From Leptospiraceae bacterium (lineage in GTDB: Bacteria > Spirochaetota > Leptospiria > Leptospirales > Leptospiraceae): 64,000 nucleotides of DNA. Location of the stretch: NCBI GenBank assembly GCA_015075105.1, contig JABTUZ010000001.1, positions 1,809,001 to 1,873,000 on the forward strand. The letters run 5' to 3'. Of the stretch, positions 3,390-57,463 are shown one piece after another. The notes under the pieces were generated by a model. It had not been told where the DNA came from. It ran no database searches and saw nothing but the letters and a program-made list of their open reading frames with translations. Each line of letters opens with the position of its first letter. Position 1 is the stretch's first letter. The translations under genes were made by a program, and so were the position numbers.

Positions 3390-4511
3390 ATGGGTGTCCC
3401 ATTTATAGATATAAAAAGATTTGAGAGCGGATTTTTAGAAGAGTGGAACGAAAAAGTAAAAAACTTGAGCGCGAAAGCCGGTTTCATCGGTGGAGAAGAA
3501 GTTACCAACTTGGAAAAAAATCTATCCGATTATTGCGAAGTCAAGCATACAATTTCTTGTGCAAACGGAACTGATGCTATCCAGCTCGCCTTACGAGCTG
3601 TAGGCGTTGGAAGAGGAGACAAGGTGTTACTGCCCGATTCTACTTTCTGGGCAACTTATGAAGCAGTCGTAAATTGCAGTGCAGACCCTTACACAGTTGA
3701 CACTGACATGAAAGACCTGCAAATGAATTTTAGTGACTTTGAAAAAGCCGCAAATGAAGTAAAACCCAAAGCTGCCATTTTAGTTCACCTGTACGGATGG
3801 GGATCGGAAAGACTAAACGACTATAGAGAATTCTGTAAGAAAAAAAATATTATACTGATAGAAGACGGGGCACAATGTTTTGGCGTGAAATACAAGGGAG
3901 AAGAAATTTACAAAAATGCGGTAATCTCTACTACTTCTTTTTATCCAGCAAAAGTTCTTGGGGCTGCGGGAGATGCGGGAGCAGTATTCACAAACGATAG
4001 TGCACTTTCAGAAAAGGTTAGAATTTTAGCCAATCACGGAAGAACTTCTCACTATGGTCATGGTGCTGTCGGTTGGAATTCCAGAATGGATTCCCTGCAA
4101 GCAGCATTCCTAAATCTATCTCTAAAAAGATTTCCAGAAAGACTTGCCTCAAGAAAAAGTATCGCAAAAAAATATCACGATGAACTTTCTAAACTTGGGG
4201 TGAATAGGATTCTTCCTCCCACTGATTTTGAAGAAAATGGATATTGCAATGTGACTCTTTTCCCAAATGAAAAACGGACAAAATTAGAAGCTCTATTGAA
4301 AGAAAAAGGAATCGGATTCGGAAATATTTATCCAGGAGCTATGAGTGATCAACCGGGTGCAAAAGAATTCTTAAAAGCCAGATTCGGAGGGAAAAATGCA
4401 CAAGAAATTTCTTCCACAGTTTTAAATCTTCCCTTATTCCCATACATGAAAGACGAAGAATTCAAGGAAGTAATTGGAGTAGTCTCAGGATTTCAGAGTG
4501 GAAAAGATTAG
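3390..4511 (+). CDS. DegT/DnrJ/EryC1/StrS-family PLP aminotransferase
   Basis: 373 residues with the family's fold-type I PLP signatures: [14 protein letters not shown] near residues 59-72, EDGAQCFG with the cofactor-binding Asp, and the Schiff-base lysine K188 in [15 protein letters not shown]. The C-terminal part includes [10 protein letters not shown] and [13 protein letters not shown], which are typical of sugar aminotransferases such as WecE/PglE/DesI. The family transaminates keto-sugar nucleotides for surface polysaccharide or glycan synthesis; the exact sugar is not determinable. It begins 2 bp after lon and its 3' end overlaps the next gene by 14 bp, suggesting one transcript. A lone sugar aminotransferase outside a glycan locus is a little unusual. 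Confidence 0.9.
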
Positions 4512-5198: not shown

Positions 5199-6209
5199 AT
5201 GAAAGCAATTCAAATAGATTCATTCGGCTTAGAAAATATCCAATACAAAGAAATCCCAGACCCGGCACCTGTAGAAAGTTCTGAAGTTTTGGTTCGATTT
5301 CGTGCGGCATCTTTAAACTATCGCGACTATCTTGTAGTGACTGGTAAATACAACCCAAAATTTCCTCTTCCTTTAATCCCATGCAGCGATGGAGCAGGTG
5401 AAGTTGTAGAGATAGGAAAAAATATAAAAAACTTTTCTGTAGGCGACAGGGTTTGTGCAACTTTCGCACCAAATTGGGATTCAGGAAAACCAACCAAGAA
5501 AGAAATCAGAGCCTCTCTCGGTGGTCCACTCGACGGCACTTTGAGAGAGTATGCTGTTTTACCGGAGTCGGGTTTAGTGAAAATTCCATCCCATCTGTCT
5601 TTTGAAGAAGGAGCAACTCTACCTTGCGCAGCACTAACCGCATGGTCTGCCCTATTTGGTGAATCTCCTGTTCTACCGGGTGAGTCTGTAGTCATTCAAG
5701 GAACGGGTGGAGTCTCAATTTTTGCATTGCAGTTTGCGAAGCTCGCCGGTGCGAAGGTAATTTTAACTTCATCTTCAGACGAAAAATTATCTCAAGGAAG
5801 GAAGTTAGGCGCAGACTTTCTTATCAATTACAAAACAGACCCGAAGTGGAGTAAAAAAGTTCGAGAGTTTACAAATGGAGAAGGTGCAGACCATATAGTA
5901 GAAGTTGGCGGAGCCGGTACCTTAGACGAATCTATTCAATCGGTAAAATTATTTGGAAGCATTTATCTAATCGGGGTCTTGAGTGGCTCTTCTCCTTCCT
6001 TAAACTTACTCCCTATCGTAATGGGGCAGGTCAAGATTCAAGGAATAGTAATCGGACCAAAAAAAAGTTTTGAAAAAATGAATAGGGCAATCACAGAAAA
6101 TTCTATTCATCCTGTAATAGATAAAATTTTCCCGTTAGAAGAAACTCGCCGCGCAATTGAATACCTTAGAGATGGTAAACACTTTGGAAAAATAGTGATA
6201 ACCATTTAA
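5199..6209 (+). CDS. Zinc-independent NAD(P)-dependent alcohol dehydrogenase / quinone oxidoreductase family
   Basis: 336 residues of the medium-chain dehydrogenase/reductase superfamily. The N-terminal GroES-like domain has SLNYRDYLVVTGKY and IPCSDGAGEVVEIG. The Rossmann domain has the dinucleotide motif GTGGVSIFALQFAKLAGA, then GADFLINYKTDP and HIVEVGGAGTLDESI. The structural-zinc cysteine cluster of classical alcohol dehydrogenases is not apparent, which places it nearer the zinc-free NADPH:quinone reductase-like branch. It converts alcohols, enals or quinones with NAD(P)H; the substrate is unknown. It is the last gene of the lon-led run and converges with the LptF/G gene, whose stop is 10 bp away. 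Confidence 0.88.
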   Translation: MKAIQIDSFGLENIQYKEIPDPAPVESSEVLVRFRAASLNYRDYLVVTGKYNPKFPLPLIPCSDGAGEVVEIGKNIKNFSVGDRVCATFAPNWDSGKPTKKEIRASLGGPLDGTLREYAVLPESGLVKIPSHLSFEEGATLPCAALTAWSALFGESPVLPGESVVIQGTGGVSIFALQFAKLAGAKVILTSSSDEKLSQGRKLGADFLINYKTDPKWSKKVREFTNGEGADHIVEVGGAGTLDESIQSVKLFGSIYLIGVLSGSSPSLNLLPIVMGQVKIQGIVIGPKKSFEKMNRAITENSIHPVIDKIFPLEETRRAIEYLRDGKHFGKIVITI

Positions 6210-6219
6210 AAAAGTTCAG

Positions 6220-8220
6220 TTATTTAGAGGTCAGTTTATTTCGTATCCGATGAACGATAAATTTTATTTTACTCCATACAAAATACATTGGCTTTAGGAT
6301 AATTTTTACCTTGTTAAGATAAGGAGATACTTTTTGAAAAAAAGGACTAATAAATGGCGTACCTGCAAAAAGTCGTTTTTTGAAAAAGAAATTGTTCAAA
6401 AAGCCAATAAAAGCGCCATTTTCTAGCGTTGTAAAAAGCCCTGAAAGGGGTTTTTTTTGCAGTAGCGTCATAAATTTAAACCATTTTTCAAAAGGTAGTT
6501 GAATGTCTGTTCTTGTCATCATTATATAGATACTGATGGATGCGATTACAATATTGGCACTCCAAGGACCGATCCAATTTGGAATTTTAGATTTATAAGA
6601 AATGCTATTCCCTAAAATAAAAAACAAATAATAAATAAATAAAAACACTATCGCAAGAGTAAAGCTCATTCCCTTCCCCGATCTTTTCACTACAAGACCT
6701 AACGGAAAAGATAAAAAGAAAAATATCTGACAAGAAATTGGAGCAGCTATTCTTTTATGTATCTCTACATTAAAAGCCGTAACTGTTTTTTGGGAGTCTT
6801 TGAGTAGATTTAAAAGTTGAGTGAGTGTCGCATAACGGTTAGTGAGATCGTCAGAAGATAGAGTTCCATTTTGAGCACCTGTAATTATATCCATCTTCAT
6901 CTGATTGACCATAGAATTCAACCCACCGATTCCTTTTATGGACAACCCCATTTCCTTAACCATTTCAAGTCCGGGCACATTTTCAAGCCCTTCTGATTCA
7001 ATGCTCCTTTTTATTGAAAAAAGCATGGGAAAAGAAAAAGTCTCCGGTTTGATATTAAAACCAATCATAGATTTTTGTTTTTGAGTAGGAACATTATAAT
7101 CCATTTCCCCGTTCAAGAAATTTGTGATGGTGAATCCGTCTTTTTTTTCGTTCCACTCCAATACAAATCCACGTTTCAATCGAATGGATTTTTCATATTC
7201 CCCTTTTAAATTTTTCTTTTCTACAATCGTGCCTTCTTTTGCAGAAATAATTTGAGTAACCCTTGATCCCCCCATAGGGATTACAATATTGTTATGGCGA
7301 ATAAAATCATTTCCCTCCATATAAATTTCCCACTCTCTGATTTGTACACCTTGCAGTTGGCCTGTATCACGATTCATCCCTTCTGTGTACAGAGTCCTGC
7401 CTTTTTTAGCAAAAGTTTCTTGAGTTTGATCACCACTAAACTGTCCGGGTGTAACTGCAATCATCGGATTGTACGCCATGATCCAATTATTGAACTCATT
7501 TAACTTTCTGGTATTTTCAGGAGCAAGATAAAAATTTAAATACCCCACTACAATTGCCGCAAGAAAACCAAATATTAAAAAATTAGAATAGATTCTTGTA
7601 AAACTAATTCCAGCTGATCTCATTGCAGTAATTTCAGAATCACCGGAAAGCCTGCCGGATGCCATAATCCCACTCATAAGACAAGCCATAGGAATAGTTG
7701 ACGGCAGTGTATTTCCAAGAAGATACCCAAAATAGTCTAAGAGTCTAAGTGCGTCAACTCCCTTCCCTACAAATAGACCTACCATTTTTTGCAGAGCCAT
7801 TGCCATATAGATCATCGTAAAAAAAGCAAGAGCCACAAGAAACGGACTGACAATTTCTTTTAGAATATATTTATTCAAAATAGGAAATCGAAAAAATGGG
7901 AAAATTCTTTTTTTGTCTGTGTGGATTATAAATGGCGTACCTGCAAAAAGTCGTTTTTTGAAAAAGCAATTGTTCAAAAAGCCTATAAAAGTGCCATTTT
8001 CTAGCGTTGTAAAAAGCCCTGAAAGGGGTTTTTGCAGTAGCGTCATAAATCCTTTAGGCATATCTTCACCGGACTGAATCCGTATAGTTCTTAAATCTTC
8101 TGTAGGATTTTTATTTGATTTTGGTAAACCAGTGAATTCTTTTTTTACGACAGGATTCTTTTTGATTCCGGTTTTTTCTTTGGATGATTTTTTTTTGGTA
8201 ATAGGTTTCTTTTTTGGCAT
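6220..8220 (-). CDS. LptF/LptG-family LPS export permease carrying two in-frame palindromic-repeat insertions
   Basis: 666 residues. The core (about 105-575) has the permease layout: N-terminal membrane helices ([40 protein letters not shown]), the sequence [14 protein letters not shown] typical of LptF/G, a periplasmic domain, and C-terminal helices ([21 protein letters not shown]). LptF/G with LptB moves LPS out of the inner membrane. The N terminus is unusually long and basic. Residues about 57-98 and 582-624 are nearly identical 41-42 aa segments ([17 protein letters not shown], then [13 protein letters not shown]) encoded by the dispersed 124-bp repeat. Both lie outside the conserved membrane core, in predicted cytoplasmic tails. 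It starts 5 bp after the miaB stop, so it is an operon with miaB. Confidence 0.92.
6350..6475 (+). repeat. 124-bp-class palindromic repeat, copy 1 (in frame in LptF/G C-terminal tail)
   Basis: 126 bp running from ATAAATGGCGTACC to TAGCGTCATAAAT. The two ends are imperfect inverted repeats (AATGGCGTACCTGCAAAAAG against TATGACGCTACTGCAAAAA read from the other end). Inside are a TTTTTTGAA/TTCAAAAA-type stem (GAAATTGTTC at its loop) and a second hairpin AAAAAGCCC-tgaaa-GGGGTTTTT. Its length is a multiple of three and the gene's strand is free of stops, giving residues about 582-624 of the permease. It differs from copy 2 by three extra T residues (one extra Lys codon). Confidence 0.93.
7928..8050 (+). 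repeat. 124-bp-class palindromic repeat, copy 2 (in frame in LptF/G N-terminal tail)
   Basis: 123 bp, almost identical to copy 1 about 1.6 kb away in the same gene and the same orientation. It encodes residues about 57-98 of the permease on the minus strand without stops. The conserved ends, ATGGC/GCCAT stem and AAAAAGCCC/GGGGTTTTT hairpin are all present. The sequence before it ([18 protein letters not shown]) is the extended polar N terminus. The sequence after it leads directly into the first membrane helix, so the insertion sits just outside the membrane domain. Confidence 0.93.
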
Positions 8221-8225
8221 CTTGC

Positions 8226-9596
8226 CTAAACGGATTTCCCTTTTAGTGTAGCGCTTGTCGCAGACTCAATTTTTACGTTTACCAATTTTCCGAACATATC
8301 CTCCGCTTGAAATCCTTCCAAAATCGGGAATACAGCCATTCTACCGCAATTGGTTCGTCCTGAGACCTCTTTGTTTGATTTTTTGGAAGTTTCTTCTACT
8401 AGTATTTCAAAAGTTTTTCCGATTTTTTGCTGGTTGAGTGAGTGAGAAATCTTAGTCTGTAAATTTACTAACTTGGTCAATCTTTCCGATTTCTCTTCTT
8501 CTGAAACATTGTCTGTAAAGTGCTTTTTAGCAAATGTTCCTTCTCTTTCAGAATACTTAAACATAAACGCCATATCAAATTTACACTTCTCGATTAGGTC
8601 TAAAGTATCTTGGAAGTCGTCTTCTGTTTCTTCAGGGAATCCAACAATTACATCGGTTGTCAGTCCTACATCAGGCACAAGACTGCGAATTTTTTCTACA
8701 AGACCTAAATATTCTTCTCTTGAATAATTTCTTTTCATTAGTTTGAGTATCTTTGAGCTACCCGATTGAAGGGGAAGATGAATATTTGGAGAAAATCTTT
8801 TTTCTTTAGCCATTAGCTCTAAAAGATGAAGTGGAAAATCTTTTGGATGAGGGGAAGTAAATCGTATTCTCGAAATGTCCGTATCGAGTAAAATCGCCTG
8901 TATGAGATCCGTAAAATCCAACTTATCGTATTTATACGAATTTACATTTTGTCCAAGCAGTGTAACTTGCTTTACCCCTTTTTCGCATAAGTCTTGGATT
9001 TCTTTTACAATAGATGAAACATCTCTACTTCTTTCTCTTCCTCTGGTGTAAGGGACAACACAAAAAGTACAGAAATTATTGCAACCTCTCATAATCGTAA
9101 CAAAAGATTGAACTTTATTTATTATGCTTGGCTGGATTTCATCATAGGTTTCAATTTTTGATAATCGAGTAAGACTAATTTTTCTTTCACCAGATCGAAT
9201 TTTTTGGATTATGCCGGGTAGTTCTCTATAATTGTCAGGGCCAACCACTACATCTAAAGGAAGCTCAAGATGAAATAAATCTTCTCCAAGGTTTTGAGCC
9301 ATACAACCAAGAATCCCTATGATCAAGTTTGGATTTTTCTTTTTTAGGTAGCCTAAATTTTGTAGTCTTCCGTAAATTTTTGCGTGTGCATTTTCTCTCA
9401 CGGCACAAGTATTTATAAAAATTATATCCGAGTTTTCTACCGAAGTGGCCTTGCTATAGTTCGCCTCTTTCATAAGAGAAGAAACAAGCCCCGAATCGTA
9501 TTCATTCATCTGGCAGCCGTAAGTTTCAATATACACTCTGCCCATCTCACGATCTAAAAGTCTTTCTGTGGTTATTTCTTGTACTTGAGTATTCAC
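8226..9596 (-). CDS. miaB: tRNA-2-methylthio-N6-dimethylallyladenosine synthase MiaB
   Basis: 456 residues. The N-terminal UPF0004 domain has the auxiliary cluster cysteines C28 ([12 protein letters not shown]), C64 ([10 protein letters not shown]) and C98 (GCMAQ). The radical-SAM domain has C172, C176 and C179 in [21 protein letters not shown]-terminal TRAM domain follows ([12 protein letters not shown] onward). The [13 protein letters not shown] segment fits MiaB rather than MtaB or RimO. The enzyme adds a methylthio group to i6A37 of tRNAs. It lies between a 7TM phosphatase gene (52 bp upstream) and the LptF/G gene (5 bp downstream), probably in one operon. Confidence 0.95.
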
Positions 9597-9648
9597 AATT
9601 CTAAATTATTTTACCAAAAAAATCTGTAAAGCCGATTTGATTCGTTTG

Positions 9649-12600
9649 TCAAATACTTGCCTTCTCTTTTAGGATTTCTTTTAATTTTAACCCTCTCGCA
9701 TTAAGAGGATCTTTCGCAAGTGCCGATTCTAATATTTTTTCTGCACGGGTGTACTGCTTGATTATAGAGTACGTTTCAGCAAGATGAACTAAGTTTTTTA
9801 TTTTTTCTGGATCTCGTAGTCTAACTCTTTCACCGTAATCGACTGACTTGGAGTGAAGACCTGCTTTCCGATAACAGTAAGAAGCAACAAAAAGCATTTC
9901 TGTATCTCCGGGCTGGATAAAAATAAAATCTTCTATATAAGAAATTGCATCTTTATATTCCTTTTGATCTATATACGCCTTGATAATCGCTCTCAATAAT
10001 TCTGGCTGGTATGTATTTTCTTTTAGGGCAAGTTTTAACTCTGAAATTATAGCCCCACTCTCAGTTAAAGATTTTATTTTTTCTAAAACTTCTTCAGATG
10101 AAGATACACTGTCTGTTGGTTCTATATTTTCTTTATAACTCAAACGAATCAAAGAAAAGTCGTCTGTGATTTCACCGGCTTTTTTAATTTCTTCTACTGT
10201 TTGTTGTAAATCCCCGTTTGAAGTTTCAATATTTTTTAAAAATAAAGTTTCATTCTCATTGATGATTCTTTCACCATTCTCGTCTGTTCCAAGAAGTAAA
10301 TCGTCTCTACCGTCAGAGCCGATGTAGATAACGTCTCCTGCTTCAAGTTGAAAGGTACGAATAGAAATTTCTCCCTCCATACCGTGGGTACCGAGTTTAC
10401 GAAACAACAATTCACTCTCAATAAATTCGGCTTTTTTGTCTCTGTAAAGAACTGTCCACGGGTGCTCTGCGTTTAGATAGTACATAAGCCCAGTTTCTTC
10501 ATCTACTAAACCTATTACAAGAGAGATCAACATGGAGCCGTTAAAACTTTCGAATATTTTATGAAGTTCGATAAATGTATTTTTAATCCATCTTTCCGGG
10601 TGTGTGTCTTGGGCTTGATGAGTGATTCTTGTCCTTTCTATAATAGATTCAAAAACTGCTCCAAGAACTAAAGCACCACCTGCCCCTTGAATCGACTTAC
10701 CCATTGCGTCTGCATTCACAAAGGCAATGTAATTTTTCTCTTTTAGAATTATATTTTGAGCTGCACTAATATCTCCACCGATCTCTTCGTGTCTATTTCT
10801 GAATTCAAACTGCTTTTTCTGCTTTGTGTAAAATTCTAAATGAACATTCTTGCTTTTTGTTTTGTTCGTTCCGAGTGGCTTGAGAAGAAGTGAAGTAAGA
10901 AAGTAATCTCCGTCTTGCTGTTGCTTCAATGCTTGCACTTCATCTAAGGTATTCTTCAATTCTTGAGTTCTTTCTTCTACTTTAATCTCAAGAGTTTCGG
11001 CATAGTCTTCTAATTTCTCTTTACTGTCTCGAATAGAGCTAACCATACTGTTGAACGATCTGGATAAAAATCCAATTTCATCTTCCACTTTTACTGGAAC
11101 TTCAACTTCCAAGTCTCCCTCGTTTACTTTTTTTACTCCGGCAAGCAAGGAATCGAGAGGATTGATTAATGCACCGAGAAAGAAAAAACGAAAACCGACT
11201 GTAATAAATAATACAAACAGTGTAAGTATGATTACCATTTTTTTACCGGAAACAGTTACAAAACTTCTGTACGCTTTAGTGGAATAACCATACTCTGCCA
11301 AAGTATCCTTTTCTTCATCATACACTACAAAAGAAACAAAATGTTTTTCTGAATATGGATTGCCCCTATACACCCTTGTTCCCTCTTCATTCATTGGCAA
11401 AATGTACAAAAGAATTTCAGATTTTAGTTTTTCTTCTTCCGAATTTGATTTTTGCAAATGTGTAAGCATGACTTGTTTAAAAGTTTCAAAATCCCCACTT
11501 TGAGAATTTAGAAACTTCGTAAGTTGACCTCTGAAATTACGATTCTCCATTTTTTTTATTTTTATTCTTCTGTAATTTAGGAAAGACTCCAAAGAATCCA
11601 AAGAATTTTTTAGAGTTAAAAAAATCTTAGCTTCAGGAGAAACAGAAGTAGATTTGTTTTTTAAAAATTCTCGATAGCCTCCAAAATAAGAGTGAGAGTC
11701 TGTAATAATAGTTTCTATGTCTGAAAAAGAATTCAGAGATTTCATTTTTTCATATATTCTTGTATTTAGAAACTCAAGTTTTAAAGATTCATTTGCTTCA
11801 CCGAGTTCTTTTTCAGAAATCTTCTTTTTTAACTCGTCCTTTTTGGGGTCAAAATAAATTGAGTACTCTAAATCTTTTTCTGATTTAGTGTTTTGACTAT
11901 AAAATAACTTTGAGAGATTTGCGTGAGACTTGCTATAAAACTCTTCTCTATCTTGAAGTGAGTAAAAACTAATAGATAAAAATGCAAGAAGAAGAGTTAC
12001 AATGCTAATCCCGATAATCTTTACCATAAAACTTGTTTTATCTTTTGTAGTATTTATATACGTTACTACAATTATAAACCCACCGATTACGGAAGTTAAA
12101 TCCCAAATTGTATGGTAAGTTGACCTCTCTAACGCACCTTCTCTACTAAGAGAGTTAGCTACAGCAGACGAGCCTACAATAATAAAAATAGAAATCATGA
12201 TAGCAAAGACCGCCCATCTCTCCCATGTCTTAGTCACTATTGTTCTCCAAATTCCAATCCCTATCATCACAAATGTATTGAGTAAAATAAAAAGCCCAGA
12301 AATTTTATTTGCAGATTCTGCTTCAAAATCGTAATAAAAACCAGAAAAATTATAAGTTATCTTTGACTGTAATGTTTGTACTATAAAAAAAATCAGCATG
12401 ACAATAGATAACAACCCTTGCCCAAGTCCAAAAATTCTAGAAAATCGTAAATTTCTAGGATCAGGAAAATAAAAGAAAAACTTACAAATTGCAAAAATTC
12501 CGAATAAGGTTCCCCCAACTGTCACATATCTGTGATAAGCACCCAAAGGAGAGTAATAGCTGGAAGCAACAAAATAAGCAAGCCCCATAATACCTAGAGA

Positions 12601-12863: not shown

Positions 12864-12987
12864 ATAAATGGCGCAACGGCAAAAAGTTTTTCTTGGAAAT
12901 AAATACACTCCAATACTTAAGAGAAATCGCCATTTACTAGCTACCCAAGCACTTGCGTTGCAAGAACTGGGAAATAGCGTCAAAAAT
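12864..12987 (+). repeat. 124-bp palindromic repeat, divergent copy 3 in the lpxD leader
   Basis: Exactly 124 bp, with the family's ends ATAAATGGCG and TAGCGTCAAAAAT, but with an almost completely different interior. The outer stem is kept and even extended (AAATGGCG with CGCCATTT). An inner stem TTGGA/TCCAA replaces the usual one. The second hairpin is CCCA-CTTGC-gtt-GCAAG-TGGG instead of AAAAAGCCC/GGGGTTTTT. Structure conserved without sequence argues for selection on, or copying of, the fold. It lies 78 bp upstream of lpxD and would be in its 5' leader if the promoter is upstream. Confidence 0.75.
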
Positions 12988-14233: not shown

Positions 14234-14680
14234 ATAGTGAAGTTAGAAATCTTTTTTATTAGGTTTATCTTTTACGATAGAGGTTTTGAAATTTCGCTTT
14301 TAGTGCAGATTTTACACTTTTCGTACACAAATGTGGGATCTCCACTCTTTTTAGTAAAGTGCATGTTTTATACCAATTGTGAACCTTTTATGCAAAAATG
14401 TGGGAACTCCAATTCGGAGGACTGATGCTTGAAGTCTGAGGTCGGAAAAAGTGAAGGTAGAATCTTTGCAAATAGGTTTATCTTGTAGGATGAGGTTTTG
14501 AGCTTTAGTAGAGTTTTTGAAATTACGCATTTAGTGCAGATTTTATACTTTTCGTACACAAATGTGGGATCTCCACTTTTTTCAGTAAAGTGCATGTTTT
14601 ATACCAATTGTTCACCTTTTATGCAAAAATGTGGGAACTCCATCGTTTTAGGTGGATTACGCCTTTAGTGCAGATTTGGG
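14234..14680. repeat. Tandem intergenic duplication with GTGGGA(A/T)CTCC motifs
   Basis: The 665-bp stretch 14131-14795 holds no convincing gene. It contains two direct copies of a unit of about 180-195 bp (14234-14412 and 14449-14643) and the start of a third (about 14655-14680, TTTAGTGCAGATTT). Shared blocks include TTTTCGTACACAAATGTGGG, TAAAGTGCATGTTTTATACC and TTTTATGCAAAAATGTGGG. Each unit has one GTGGGATCTCCAC and one GTGGGAACTCCA. Reverse-complemented, the latter reads GVPT/GDPT-like peptides, as in the 3' part of DUF1564 genes, so these may be decayed DUF1564 ends. A GACTATCTC at 14141-14149 recurs at an IS remnant edge (17829). Confidence 0.8.
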
Positions 14681-14795: not shown

Positions 14796-15287
14796 ATGAA
14801 CCCACAAAAATTTACAGAAACACAATCGAGCTTGCTTGTTCCGGCAAAATATATGGACGAGTTTAATAGGAGAACAACGGGTTTTTCGAGACGAAAATAT
14901 TTGCACGCACTGTTGAATAGATACAGAAATGTGATTCTTTGGGGGACTTTTGAGAAGATGGAGAGGGTCAAAAAGGCTTACCAAGAAGTCGGACAGAATT
15001 TGCAGAAGAAGAATTTTACCCCGAATAACGAAGACTGGATTGAGCTTGGGATTCTTGCAGACTGGCTTGGCACCACAAAGACCGCTCTTTTTACTCTTTT
15101 GTTAGTGCTTGACCTTGCCGAATGGGACATAATTCTCCCCAGCCGATTCTTCGAGAATGGAGTTCCCACCCCGGTAACCACGATTGCGGGGGGAGCTTAC
15201 CTTTCCAAGAGAAAAACTACTCGCTACAATAGGCTAAAACGACACAAACCCGACGAAAAAGAAGCAAAAACCCCTAACCTACTTTAA
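14796..15287 (+). CDS. DUF1564-like protein (Leptospira-type family)
   Basis: 163 residues with a strong Shine-Dalgarno AAGGAG 8 bp before the ATG. The N-terminal half is polar and basic (SLLVPAKYMDEFNRRTTGFSRRKYL). The C-terminal half has NEDWIELGILADWLGTTKTALFTLLLVLDLAEW followed by the NGVPTP turn (residues about 133-138) and a basic tail. The arrangement of helix, [FY]xxLLxLxL and N-x-GVPT matches my memory of DUF1564 proteins, expanded in Leptospira and of unknown function; the helical basic character suggests nucleic-acid binding, which is inference. A truncated inverted copy lies at 57215-57463. Confidence 0.72.
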   Translation: MNPQKFTETQSSLLVPAKYMDEFNRRTTGFSRRKYLHALLNRYRNVILWGTFEKMERVKKAYQEVGQNLQKKNFTPNNEDWIELGILADWLGTTKTALFTLLLVLDLAEWDIILPSRFFENGVPTPVTTIAGGAYLSKRKTTRYNRLKRHKPDEKEAKTPNLL

Positions 15288-15741: not shown

Positions 15742-15865
15742 ATAAATGGCGTACCTGCAAAAAGTTGTTTTTTGAAAAAGCAATTGTTCAAAAAACCAAT
15801 AAAAGTGCCATTTTCTAGCGTTGTCCAGCTCTTGTCCACAAGGGCTGGACAATAGCGTCATAAAT
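15742..15865 (+). repeat. 124-bp palindromic repeat, copy 4 with an exchanged hairpin
   Basis: 124 bp. The first 80 bp closely match copies 1 and 2 (ATAAATGGCGTACCTGCAAAAAG through GTGCCATTTTCTAGCG). The second hairpin is replaced by the near-perfect 32-bp palindrome TTGTCCAGC(T/C)CTTGTCC...GGGCTGGACAA at about 15821-15852, after which the standard end TAGCGTCATAAAT resumes. It is intergenic, between the DUF1564-like gene and the attC-like palindrome. Confidence 0.92.
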
Positions 15866-36525: not shown

Positions 36526-36649
36526 ACTTATGACGCTACTGTAAAAACCCCTTTCAGGGCTTTTTACAACGATAGAAAATGGCGATTCTATTGGCTTTTT
36601 GAACAATTGCTTTTTTTAAAAAACGACTTTTTGCAGGTACGCCACTTAT
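36526..36649 (-). repeat. 124-bp palindromic repeat, copy 5 (inverted, intergenic)
   Basis: 124 bp in the gap between topA and a small gene, reversed relative to the other copies. Its minus strand runs from ATAAGTGGCGTACCTGCAAAAAG to CAGTAGCGTCATAAGT. The AAAAAGCCC/GGGGTTTTT hairpin is kept. Paired changes occur in the first stem (ATGGCG opposite CGCCAC/T). Read in the frame used inside the permease gene, it has TAA stops and a one-base shift, so this copy is not protein-coding. The remainder of 36452-36783 contains no gene. Confidence 0.93.
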
Positions 36650-52153: not shown

Positions 52154-52353
52154 TTCTTTACTTATATTTATATTTAATGTATATTTTATTAGACCAGAAA
52201 ATGAAACAAGTAAATTTCATTTTATTCAATAGTCTCAAAACTTAGAAGTAGGGAGCTAATAGGAACTAAAATAGATTTTTCGTCGATATTGAATGGTGAT
52301 TTCTTATGATTTGAAAGAAATCTATTTTAAAGAAAACTTTATGCACACTCGCT

Positions 52354-54264
52354 ATGTTTAAGATACATTATAACATTTTTTATTTAGTCATGCTGTTTCT
52401 TTCTTTAAAAAGTATTGAGTCTATAGAGCCACTTGTTTTGCAACCCGACTTTACAGGCAAATCCCTTGGTTATAGTTTAGAGTATTTTGAAGACAAAGAA
52501 AAAATATTCGATATTGAGCAGATTATCGAAGTAGATTCTATTTCTTCAAGAAAAATCAACTGGAAAAAATCTTCCCAAGAATCCCCCGGGTTCGGATATA
52601 CTAATTCTGCTTATTGGATGAAATTCTCCATAGAAAATCAAACTCAAACAGAAAAAGAAATGTTTCTAGAAATTGCTTACCCTCTATTGGATAAAATTTA
52701 TTTTTTTGAAATTAGAAAAAATAAAAAAATTACAAAAAAGTTTGTAGGAGATTCAATTCCATTTCATAAGAGAGAAGTCGCCTTCAGAAATTTTTTATTT
52801 TCTCTCAAAGCTCCAACAGGTATTTCAACCTATTATCTGAAAATCGAAACTGAAAGCTCTATGGTGATTCCTATATGGCTCTGGTCACCGAAGAGTCTTC
52901 AAGGAAAATTATCCGATGAAAGCCTTATTCTGGGGAGCTATTATGGAATTTTATTTGTAATGGCTCTATTCAATCTATTTTTATTTTTATCTATTAGAGA
53001 CAAAGTATATTTCGTTTACGTTATGTTAATTGTTACTTTCGGGATTTTTCAATCTACACTATCGGGTCACAGCTTTCAATATATATATCCAAACAATACC
53101 TATCTCGCCAAAATATGCATCCCGATATTTATGATGGCTTCTATTTTTTGGATCATTCAATTTACAAGATACTATCTGAACACTCCTCAATTTCTTCCAA
53201 AAACTGACCTCGCAATGAAAATATTTTCAGGAATCATTTTCATCTTAGGAGTAGCTTCCTTTATCGAAAAATACTATATTATCGTTCCTATCCAAGTCGG
53301 GTTTTCCATAATTTGTGTAATCGGAATGAATATAGTTGCAATACAATGCCTGATTCAAAAAAATAGATCTGCAAAATTTTATATCCTCGCATGGGGTTTT
53401 ATGTTGAGCGCTATCTTAGTTTATAGTTTAAAAACACTTACAGTTCTGCCCAATAATTTTTTTACAAGTTGGTCCCTTCTCATCGGCTCTACCGCAGAAA
53501 TTACTCTTTTATCTTTTGGATTAGCGGACAGAATCAATCGAATGAATAAGGAGCTTCATAAAGTGAAAAACGATCTTGAAAAAATGTCTCAAGTCAAAGA
53601 TGCGTTTTTATCAAATATTTCTCACGAGATACGCACCCCATTGACTACTATCTATGGATTTTCAGAACTGATAGATCTATTAAAACCAAAAAATCTTCAG
53701 TCTGTGAAAAACTACAACAAAGAAATATTGTATAGCACAGAAGAGCTGATTGACTATATAAACAATATCATGCTTATCACAAATATCGAAAGCATCCCGA
53801 ATATTAAAAAAGAAAAAATTCAAGTTTCAAGTTTAATCAAAGATATACTAAGAGGACTAAAAAAAATATCCGAAAAAAATCAATTTGATATGAAATTAAA
53901 TGTCCCGGTAAATATATCAATAAATTCAGACTCCGAATTATTAAAAAAGTCGTTAGAAGTTTTTATTAAAAATGCAATCATGTATAGCCCTACAAATAGA
54001 AATGGAATGGTCTCTGCTTCTAAAAACGGGGATATTCTAAAAATAGAAATACAAGATAACGGGATAGGAATTGAAAAAGAAGAAATTACCAAAATATTTG
54101 AAAAATTTTATCGAATAGACTCTTCCTTGCACTACGATGTCAGTGGAATGGGAATCGGGTTATTTTTAGCAAAAAGAATTATTCTACAATTAGGGGGTAG
54201 AATTGAAGTAGAAAGTGAAATTCTGAAAGGAAGTAAATTTAAAATTTTTATACCGACCCGCTAA
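52354..54264 (+). CDS. 7TMR-DISM sensor histidine kinase
   Basis: 636 residues. A signal peptide is followed by an extracellular beta domain (GFGYTNSAYWMKFSIENQT, FLEIAYPLLDKIYFFEI), seven hydrophobic helices (about residues 195-390), a coiled coil, the HisKA site LSNISHEIRTPLTTIYGF with the phosphorylated His, and a HATPase domain (FIKNAIMYSPTNRNG, QDNGIGIEKEEI, MGIGLFLAKRI). This is the 7TMR-DISM receptor type, which probably binds a small carbohydrate-like ligand outside and signals to an unknown response regulator, as none is adjacent. Confidence 0.92.
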   Translation: MFKIHYNIFYLVMLFLSLKSIESIEPLVLQPDFTGKSLGYSLEYFEDKEKIFDIEQIIEVDSISSRKINWKKSSQESPGFGYTNSAYWMKFSIENQTQTEKEMFLEIAYPLLDKIYFFEIRKNKKITKKFVGDSIPFHKREVAFRNFLFSLKAPTGISTYYLKIETESSMVIPIWLWSPKSLQGKLSDESLILGSYYGILFVMALFNLFLFLSIRDKVYFVYVMLIVTFGIFQSTLSGHSFQYIYPNNTYLAKICIPIFMMASIFWIIQFTRYYLNTPQFLPKTDLAMKIFSGIIFILGVASFIEKYYIIVPIQVGFSIICVIGMNIVAIQCLIQKNRSAKFYILAWGFMLSAILVYSLKTLTVLPNNFFTSWSLLIGSTAEITLLSFGLADRINRMNKELHKVKNDLEKMSQVKDAFLSNISHEIRTPLTTIYGFSELIDLLKPKNLQSVKNYNKEILYSTEELIDYINNIMLITNIESIPNIKKEKIQVSSLIKDILRGLKKISEKNQFDMKLNVPVNISINSDSELLKKSLEVFIKNAIMYSPTNRNGMVSASKNGDILKIEIQDNGIGIEKEEITKIFEKFYRIDSSLHYDVSGMGIGLFLAKRIILQLGGRIEVESEILKGSKFKIFIPTR

Positions 54265-55796: not shown

Positions 55797-55939
55797 ATTT
55801 CCAACTCAATATTTCTATGAGGATAGTTTTTTGTTGAACTGCAAAAATCTCAAATGAGATTTTAGCCTTTGATCAGTGGGTATGCTTTATAATTTGTGTC
55901 TATTAATTTGAAGATAGACTTTGGGTAGGTGTGCTATTT

Positions 55940-57175
55940 ATGAATAAAATTTACTTTTGGCGTAATGTATTTCTTATCTATTCAACACTACTATTAATCT
56001 TATTTCTTCCATCGTGTAAAAATAAAAAACAAACTAAGTTTGTACTAGAGACAGTAACTGCTTTAGACCATAGGATCCCTGCACCTTCTAAAGAAGATAT
56101 GAAAAAAATTATTGAAGAAGGAAAAAAAACTATCTCGATGAAATTTGGAGAAGAAATCGAATTAGAGTTTCACGATAACGGTTATATTTCATTAGAAGAT
56201 TTATTTTCTTCCATTCAATACCAGAAACAAAATCATTATACCACAAAATATAAATACGATTTTCAACAAATGGAGAAAGCAAACATTTTTTCTAATCCTG
56301 AATATAAAAAAGAAGTATTGGATTTTTTAAAATCTTGGAGCATTGAATCATTACAAAAATTTTTTCCAAATAAGAAAATCTCAAATTATAAAGAAGTAGA
56401 AATTGAATTATTAAAAACCTATCACCAAAAAATGTATTGGCTCACCTCTCTCAAAACAAATAAAAATGAGCCACTGCTAAATATTCCTCTTAAAAATCAT
56501 CAATCTTACATAGAATGGAAGGCTTTTATGTACGATCAAAGTAAATACGATGTTATTTTTACTAATACGATTATAGTTCTAGATACAATTAATACCCCCT
56601 ACCCTCACTCTGTAGTTAAACACGCAAAAGTAGGAGGCTCTTCTTTTGAAAGTCCGAAAAGAAATCCGATGCTTGGCAACTCTCTTCTAATTAATTTTTT
56701 AGAAGAATACGGCAATATTGATGGGATTAAAAATCCATTTCAGTTAAATTCTGAAAAGAAAAACAAAATCATCGGAGGGCTTTTTTTTGCTCATGAGTTT
56801 GGCCACGCGTTTTTTCAAATCCCCGATGTTTACGATCACCCAGAATCTTGTTTAATGAACGCAAGCATGGACAGTGGAAATATGGAAAAAAGTTATGAAC
56901 TCCTGCTCTCCGATCCTCATCCTTGCCCTAAATGCAAGCCTTGGATTCAATCCAAGAAAAATTTTATCGAAGCCGAAATTCTATTCTCTAAAAGTCAATT
57001 TCAAGATGCAGGAGAAAAATTTTTAATCTGCGCTTCTAATCTTCCCACTCAAATTGATAGCGACAGAAACAGATATTTACTACAAATTTATAGTCAAGCA
57101 AAACTTGCATTTAGCAAAGTAAACAATTTAAACAAAATTCAAGTAATTGAAAGTTTAGAGTCTTCTCTAAGGTAA
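55940..57175 (+). CDS. HExxH zinc metalloprotease-like lipoprotein
   Basis: About 411 residues. ATG 55940 is preferred over GTG 55931 because GTAGGTG lies 8 bp upstream. The signal ends in a lipobox-like LFLPSC. The body has a long helical region and then the metal motif GGLFFAHEFGHAFFQIPDVYDHPESCLM at about residues 282-309: HEFGH, a PD(V)YDHP segment and a Met turn, the pattern of gluzincin/metzincin-like enzymes, although the third ligand is uncertain. Two late CPKC/CxxC-like cysteines occur (HPCPKCKPW). It is likely an outer-surface or periplasmic protease; substrates are unknown. Confidence 0.78.
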   Translation: MNKIYFWRNVFLIYSTLLLILFLPSCKNKKQTKFVLETVTALDHRIPAPSKEDMKKIIEEGKKTISMKFGEEIELEFHDNGYISLEDLFSSIQYQKQNHYTTKYKYDFQQMEKANIFSNPEYKKEVLDFLKSWSIESLQKFFPNKKISNYKEVEIELLKTYHQKMYWLTSLKTNKNEPLLNIPLKNHQSYIEWKAFMYDQSKYDVIFTNTIIVLDTINTPYPHSVVKHAKVGGSSFESPKRNPMLGNSLLINFLEEYGNIDGIKNPFQLNSEKKNKIIGGLFFAHEFGHAFFQIPDVYDHPESCLMNASMDSGNMEKSYELLLSDPHPCPKCKPWIQSKKNFIEAEILFSKSQFQDAGEKFLICASNLPTQIDSDRNRYLLQIYSQAKLAFSKVNNLNKIQVIESLESSLR

Positions 57176-57214: not shown

Positions 57215-57463
57215 TAAGTTTTTCTTTTTTCGTCAGGCTTGTGTCGTATCAGTCTGTTGTATCGGGTAATTTTTCTCTTGGACAGGTAAGCTCCCCCCGC
57301 AATCGTGGTTACCGGGGTGGGAACTCCATTCTCGAAGAATCGGCTTGGGAGAATTATGTCCCATTCGGCAAGGTCAAGCACTAACAGAAGAGTAAAAAGA
57401 GCTGTCTTTGTGGTGCCAAGCCAATCTGCAAGAATGCCAAGCTCAATCCAGTCCTCGTTATAT
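57215..57463 (-). pseudogene. Truncated inverted copy of the DUF1564-like gene
   Basis: The minus strand reproduces the 3' two-fifths of the gene at 14796-15287: the segment encoding DWIELGILADWLGTTKTALF and NGVPTPVTTIAGG is nearly identical, including the GGAGTTCCCACC motif. The first part of the gene is missing, and the 3' end is partly altered with frame changes. It sits at the junction between chromosomal genes and the phage-like module, so it may mark a recombination or insertion point. Confidence 0.85.

Follow-up and report, generated by a model that had tools for sequence, protein, structure and literature searches.

Small palindromic repeats can invade proteins in frame, and Rickettsia is the best-known case. 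The RPE of Rickettsia and the WPE of Wolbachia are palindromes, similar in size to the repeat described below, that are read in frame within genes (PMC10969869, PMC2229807, PMC3767692); the target duplication of RPE is listed as unknown (PMC2229807). Here, we analyzed a 64,000-nucleotide stretch of a Leptospiraceae genome (the window), in which an LptF-like LPS-export permease gene carries two in-frame copies of a short dispersed repeat. Like RPE and WPE, this element has a length of about 100-150 bp, terminal inverted repeats and open frames, occurs in both genic and intergenic DNA and is fused to conserved proteins. Its palindrome is imperfect, and several conserved genes that are unrelated to one another carry it as an in-frame insert. 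Unlike them, it belongs to an unrelated lineage and shows a clear 6-bp target duplication. Peptides from its three open frames matched nothing in NCBIfam or Pfam up to E 10, a comparison made at the peptide level.

Three further classes of repeat invite comparison. With bacterial MITEs (such as Correia, RUP and ERIC), the element shares its shortness, AT-richness, lack of coding capacity on its own, terminal inverted repeats and target duplication, as well as many near-identical copies (PMC2229807). In contrast to these, it duplicates 6 bp at ATTTAT, whereas duplications of the TA type are the common ones, its length is frame-neutral, and no parent IS was found for it. The enterobacterial RU-1, RU-2 and RU-3 repeats also resemble MITEs and have open frames that are fused to genes, but the insertions described here sit inside genes and have clear bounds, and orthologues of LptF, an ACT-domain gene and an Lsa33-like lipoprotein show the empty sites. 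GTAG/CGTC-tagged REPs likewise place palindromes in frame in genes, sometimes twice per ORF, and the body of our element ends in CGTC on one strand. However, REPs are RAYT-linked and 20-40 bp long, whereas the element has a 111-bp body flanked by a duplication of 6 bp and lies outside the class of 20-40 bp palindromes with a tetranucleotide tag. The reading that fits best is that the element works like RPEs, but probably forms a family unrelated to them, whose target duplication can be read.

An earlier inspection of the window without database searches (the sequence-only reading) knew of such spread in Rickettsia and of no description in Leptospira-like genomes. Our literature search, largely outside subscription papers, also found no such element in relatives of Leptospira, but in-frame palindromic repeats within ORFs have already been published for organisms other than Rickettsia, and a single ORF can hold two of them. 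In this spirochaete lineage, insertion is directly readable from the 6-bp duplication, empty sites, matched ends and frame-neutral length; therefore, the tolerance of gene-invading repeats becomes countable. The copies amount to natural experiments, in which 39 residues have been inserted into an LPS-export permease and into the signal peptides of lipoproteins.

Two insertions in an LptF-like gene

We named the 666-aa host protein LptF-like because it has the domain and fold of LptF while scoring below the LptF equivalog level. The LptF_LptG domain (PF03739) spans residues 117-567 (E 1e-81), and solved LptF chains rank first both by profile and by fold comparison. TIGR04407 (LptF) is the top model with 184.5 bits, under the equivalog cutoff of 230. 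Residues 1-28 (window 8220-8137, minus strand) form a lysine-rich N-terminal extension that is missing in the 7 orthologues and is unrelated to the element. An initial contig scan with the insert-bearing protein as the query returned no match, and terminator-like sites within 5800-9700 did not exceed the number expected by chance, so a terminator role was rejected.

With both flanking 6-mers included, the N-terminal insert occupies window 7928-8050 and starts at coding nt 171, and the C-terminal insert occupies window 6350-6475 and starts at coding nt 1746 (Table 1). Both are in frame, in codon phase 2, and both fall outside the conserved domain, as the sequence-only reading had placed them. 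That reading had described residues about 57-98 and 582-624 as near-identical copies of a 124-bp palindromic repeat; two near-identical in-frame copies were indeed found, while the residues now read 57-97 and 582-623, the length is 123 bp (126 bp for the C-terminal copy), and the inverted outer arms make only an imperfect palindrome. The two copies are 95% identical across 126 columns (E about 1e-54), which excludes chance similarity. The N-terminal copy differs by 1 base from several copies elsewhere and by 3 bases plus AAA from the C-terminal copy; being nearer to copies elsewhere than to its neighbor, it marks the two as independent arrivals.

Both segments are missing from 7 of 7 same-family orthologues. 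When the flanks of the N-terminal insert are joined at one ATTTAT, they align without a gap to the orthologues (SDIPKD-F-KVHTD), and the LptF motif upstream of this insert is conserved with all orthologues. The length of the C-terminal tail varies among orthologues, so the empty site there is less exact. Since the element brings its own ATG, which forms residue 58, translation across the N-terminal insert is something that we infer. AlphaFold modeled the core with good confidence and most of both inserts with pLDDT below 50; the alignment was gapped at the inserts, and the model hints weakly that they may be disordered.

Table 1. Positions of the host gene, the element copies and the duplicated targets within the window
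Feature	Position	Strand	Remarks
LptF-like LPS-export permease gene, 666 aa	6220..8220	minus	PF03739 and solved LptF chains
Target duplication ATTTAT, downstream copy, C-terminal insert	6350..6355	minus	
C-terminal element body	6356..6469	minus	114 bp (extra AAA); residues 582-623 including target
Target duplication ATTTAT, upstream copy, C-terminal insert	6470..6475	minus	
Target duplication ATTTAT, downstream copy, N-terminal insert	7928..7933	minus	
N-terminal element body	7934..8044	minus	111 bp; residues 57-97 including duplicated target
Target duplication ATTTAT, upstream copy, N-terminal insert	8045..8050	minus	
Older diverged copy	12864..12986	minus	Profile match 69.5 bits
Subfamily copy with different inner hairpin	15742..15865 (about)	minus	CCAGCCCTTG...CAAGAGCTGG
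Further copy, outside ORFs	36526..36649 (about)	plus	ACTTAT duplication on both sides
Older partial copy	52271..52357	plus	Profile match 29.2 bits
Possible very old copy	55838..55941	plus	Profile match 20.4 bits, E 0.001

Element structure and target-site duplication

The usual element consists of a 111-bp body and a 6-bp duplicated target, giving 123 bp end to end, and the extra AAA brings the C-terminal LptF-like copy to 126 bp. Each usual insertion adds a net 117 bp, or 39 codons, and thus leaves the reading frame unshifted. Three of the six phases are free of stops: sense phase 2 (...TPFI), sense phase 0 (...RYAIY) and antisense phase 0 (INGVPAKSR...SSVIN). Phase 2 opens with F-M-T-L-L, which includes the ATG.

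The flanks of 43 copies with both ends recognized were compared with 2000 partner shuffles at lengths of 3 to 12. At 6 bp, the left and right flanks agreed at 232 of 258 positions, compared with 221.1 in the shuffled pairs (sd 1.69, maximum 228), an agreement exceeding all 2000 shuffles; among the lengths compared, the excess appeared at 6 bp only. The flank pairs were identical in 31 of the 43 copies, and off-consensus targets often changed on both sides together (ATTCAT, ACTTAT, TTTTAT, ATATAT, AATTAT). Because both sides vary together, the flanking 6-mers are a target-site duplication, usually of ATTTAT.

The terminal inverted repeats are present but imperfect (about 13/20, with a common CTGCAAAAA core), and complementarity between the outer arms (23-25 nt) is 72-74%. 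Single copies retain an inner hairpin with one of two alternative stem sequences. A form with a 45-bp body is also present, apparently produced by deletion between two CTTTTT stretches. Of the two strands of the N-terminal LptF copy, only the non-coding one folds better than shuffles (z -3.6, against z -0.8 for the coding strand). RNAalifold predicted zero pairs for 26 diverged copies, a conserved RNA structure was rejected, and Rfam had no match within the window.

Copies in the genome and among relatives

Twenty-six diverse copies were used to build a sequence profile. The genome (3.42 Mb, 4 contigs) contains 98 matches to this profile and 43 BLAST matches, of about 123 bp. The element thus exists as many near-identical short copies without a transposase gene, and copies such as the one at 36526-36649 confirm that it also occurs in non-coding DNA. 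Three tandem copies at C2:953262-953618 have common ATTTAT junctions. The relatives, traced via an orthologue, are uncultured Leptospiraceae/Leptospirales assemblies, and the 7 same-family genomes gave 0 to 2 weak profile matches each. A DNA query against 392 other genomes of the phylum (two candidates scored per genome) found no match. By these searches, the element is peculiar to this lineage. Phage, plasmid and viral collections contained no match to the element, and such carriage was rejected.

Both large contigs end in a copy of the element or a relative of it (C1 2007054-2007153 and C2 1410329-1410425). This suggests that the assembly broke at the repeat, and C1 and C2 may therefore be one chromosome. 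The window also holds a different 236-nt repeat in inverted orientation (15025-15260 and 57226-57461, 93% identity) and a 134-nt direct repeat (14278-14411 and 14509-14642, 94% identity).

Other host genes

Three other exported proteins also contain the peptide of the LptF inserts (sense phase 2), read in frame and always within the signal peptide, so the genome search proposed in the sequence-only reading did find it inside other proteins. One is an Lsa33-like FecR lipoprotein (MNKIF-insert-IGIVISALTILGIGNC), whose gene has GGAGG ahead of its upstream ATG and whose orthologues have plain short lipoprotein signals and no insert. The second is a LolA-like protein with the insert at codon 10, before the hydrophobic core, and the third is an unassigned lipoprotein (MRF-insert-IILIFFLSAC). 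In an ACT-domain gene (locus L172, C2:949500-957000, positions 3436-4233, minus strand), the three tandem copies are read in sense phase 0 and interrupt the conserved GIIYR motif; compared with relatives, this gene stops early in the second ACT repeat, and thus it may be decaying. For three hosts (LptF, the ACT-domain gene and the Lsa33-like lipoprotein), the empty site is seen in orthologues. The open frames, together with the conserved upstream sequence, suggest that the inserts are translated.

A subclass B1 metallo-beta-lactamase carries an old phase 0 copy, placed after the lipobox and ahead of the catalytic domain. This lipoprotein (locus L121, C2:88100-92100, ORF 1910-2794) is nearest to the CHM/BMHC models. 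An ElyC-like protein and an amino-acid permease each end in element sequence, and a nucleotidyltransferase-like ORF, for which Pfam support is sub-threshold, may hold a short form of the element in antisense orientation. N-terminal insertions seemed at first to be present in a TPR gene (C1:26044), an antiporter-like gene (C2:498212) and a handful of other genes; these were left uncounted, since the element may merely abut their starts. At about 1960-2057 of locus L175, a small lipoprotein-like ORF takes its stop from TTATGA at the left end of an element, and this TTATGA also overlaps an ATG in another frame; stop and start may thus be coupled before a TPR gene.

Where insertions persist

Within the window, 96 of 125 ATTTAT sites (77%) lie in ORFs. 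The 28 copies with scores of 90 bits or higher were taken as young, together with the third tandem copy. With the tandem counted as one event, this gave 27 insertion events, of which only 6 are in genes despite the large share of target sites there. When every empty site was closed, no ORF of 90 aa or more was found to be broken by a young element. All 6 in-gene events lie in open phases, as expected for two thirds of coding target sites, a count that alone is not significant. Phase 2 is intact in all 5 single in-gene copies but in 9 of the 20 others (p 0.04); it should be noted that open frames also served to recognize the in-gene copies. Three of the five phase-2 insertions fall within about the first 10 codons, where 6 of the 96 target sites lie (p 0.002 in a post hoc test). 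ATTTAT in phase 2 encodes F-I; signal peptides often have this pair where they begin with hydrophobic residues, which may explain the choice of these sites. Changes from the consensus in coding copies are few and mostly amino-acid-changing; in these small numbers, therefore, the peptide shows no sign of constraint.

Origin and maintenance of the insertions

We consider it very probable that the repeat is a selfish, non-autonomous MITE-like element that persists in intergenic DNA or where a gene tolerates it, that it hit LptF twice and that the inserts are likely passengers. A transposase acting in trans would insert the 111-bp body into AT-rich targets, mostly ATTTAT, duplicating 6 bp. The 117-bp gain would keep the frame, and translation would be stopped only where the target falls in one of the three closed phases. 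Selection would remove insertions that break genes or disturb folded cores, and the survivors would lie in intergenic DNA or in tolerant protein parts such as the variable LptF tails and the starts of signal peptides. LptF was hit twice independently, and the inserts are most likely tolerated, flexible and nearly neutral. RPE-like in-frame spread into both tails, as the sequence-only reading had proposed, is borne out by orthologues without the segments and by the peptide in other proteins; the N-terminal tail aligns as that reading foresaw, the C-terminal site less exactly.

Whether the inserts do anything for their hosts was also weighed. It is improbable, in our judgment, that the element is adapted to coding DNA, with its length and open frames kept for a niche in the ends of membrane and exported proteins and with some inserts functional; if true, it would be an independently evolved protein-invading palindrome system outside Rickettsiales, in envelope proteins. 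Co-option of the peptide for a useful property of LptF tails or signal peptides, such as a basic patch (FFKKR) preceding a hydrophobic stretch or a binding surface, strikes us as less likely still. LptF was hit twice, the other phase-2 insertions are all in exported proteins, the signal-peptide inserts put KKR directly before the hydrophobic core, and phase 2 is intact in 5 of 5 single in-gene copies versus 9 of 20 others (p 0.04), all of which co-option would accommodate. However, a retained frame shows only the need for the host protein, the few changes in coding copies mostly alter amino acids, and both LptF inserts have pLDDT below 50. The added interaction surface suggested earlier thus found no support, neither in a confident fold nor in the pattern of changes.

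Alternatively, the N-terminal segments might be untranslated, with starts at the element's ATG and the element as a new start region. Phase 2 does include an ATG in F-M-T-L-L, and a diverged copy and a TPR gene may use such starts, but GGAGG precedes the upstream ATG of the Lsa33-like gene, the upstream LptF motif is conserved in all orthologues, and the C-terminal LptF insert lies beyond the reach of this idea, to which we give very little credence. That the segments are ancestral to the LptF-like protein, or that the dispersed copies are pieces of its gene, draws on nothing but the common sequence and can practically be dismissed: empty sites contradict it, no relative carries the segments, and the other copies, intergenic ones included, are bounded by the same duplications while the DNA around them is unrelated.

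For the selfish MITE-like element that we favor, the poor terminal inverted repeats (about 13/20) count against the MITE reading. End scans allowing 3 mismatches found no end pair spaced like an IS, and neither a transposase nor an autonomous parent with these ends was detected. The one IS compared, a four-copy DDE_Tnp_1 IS, was rejected as the parent, as its ends differ from those of the element. Its four identical copies (loci L217-L220, C1:1023627-1184335), each with a 502-aa DDE_Tnp_1 frame, are clustered within 160 kb.
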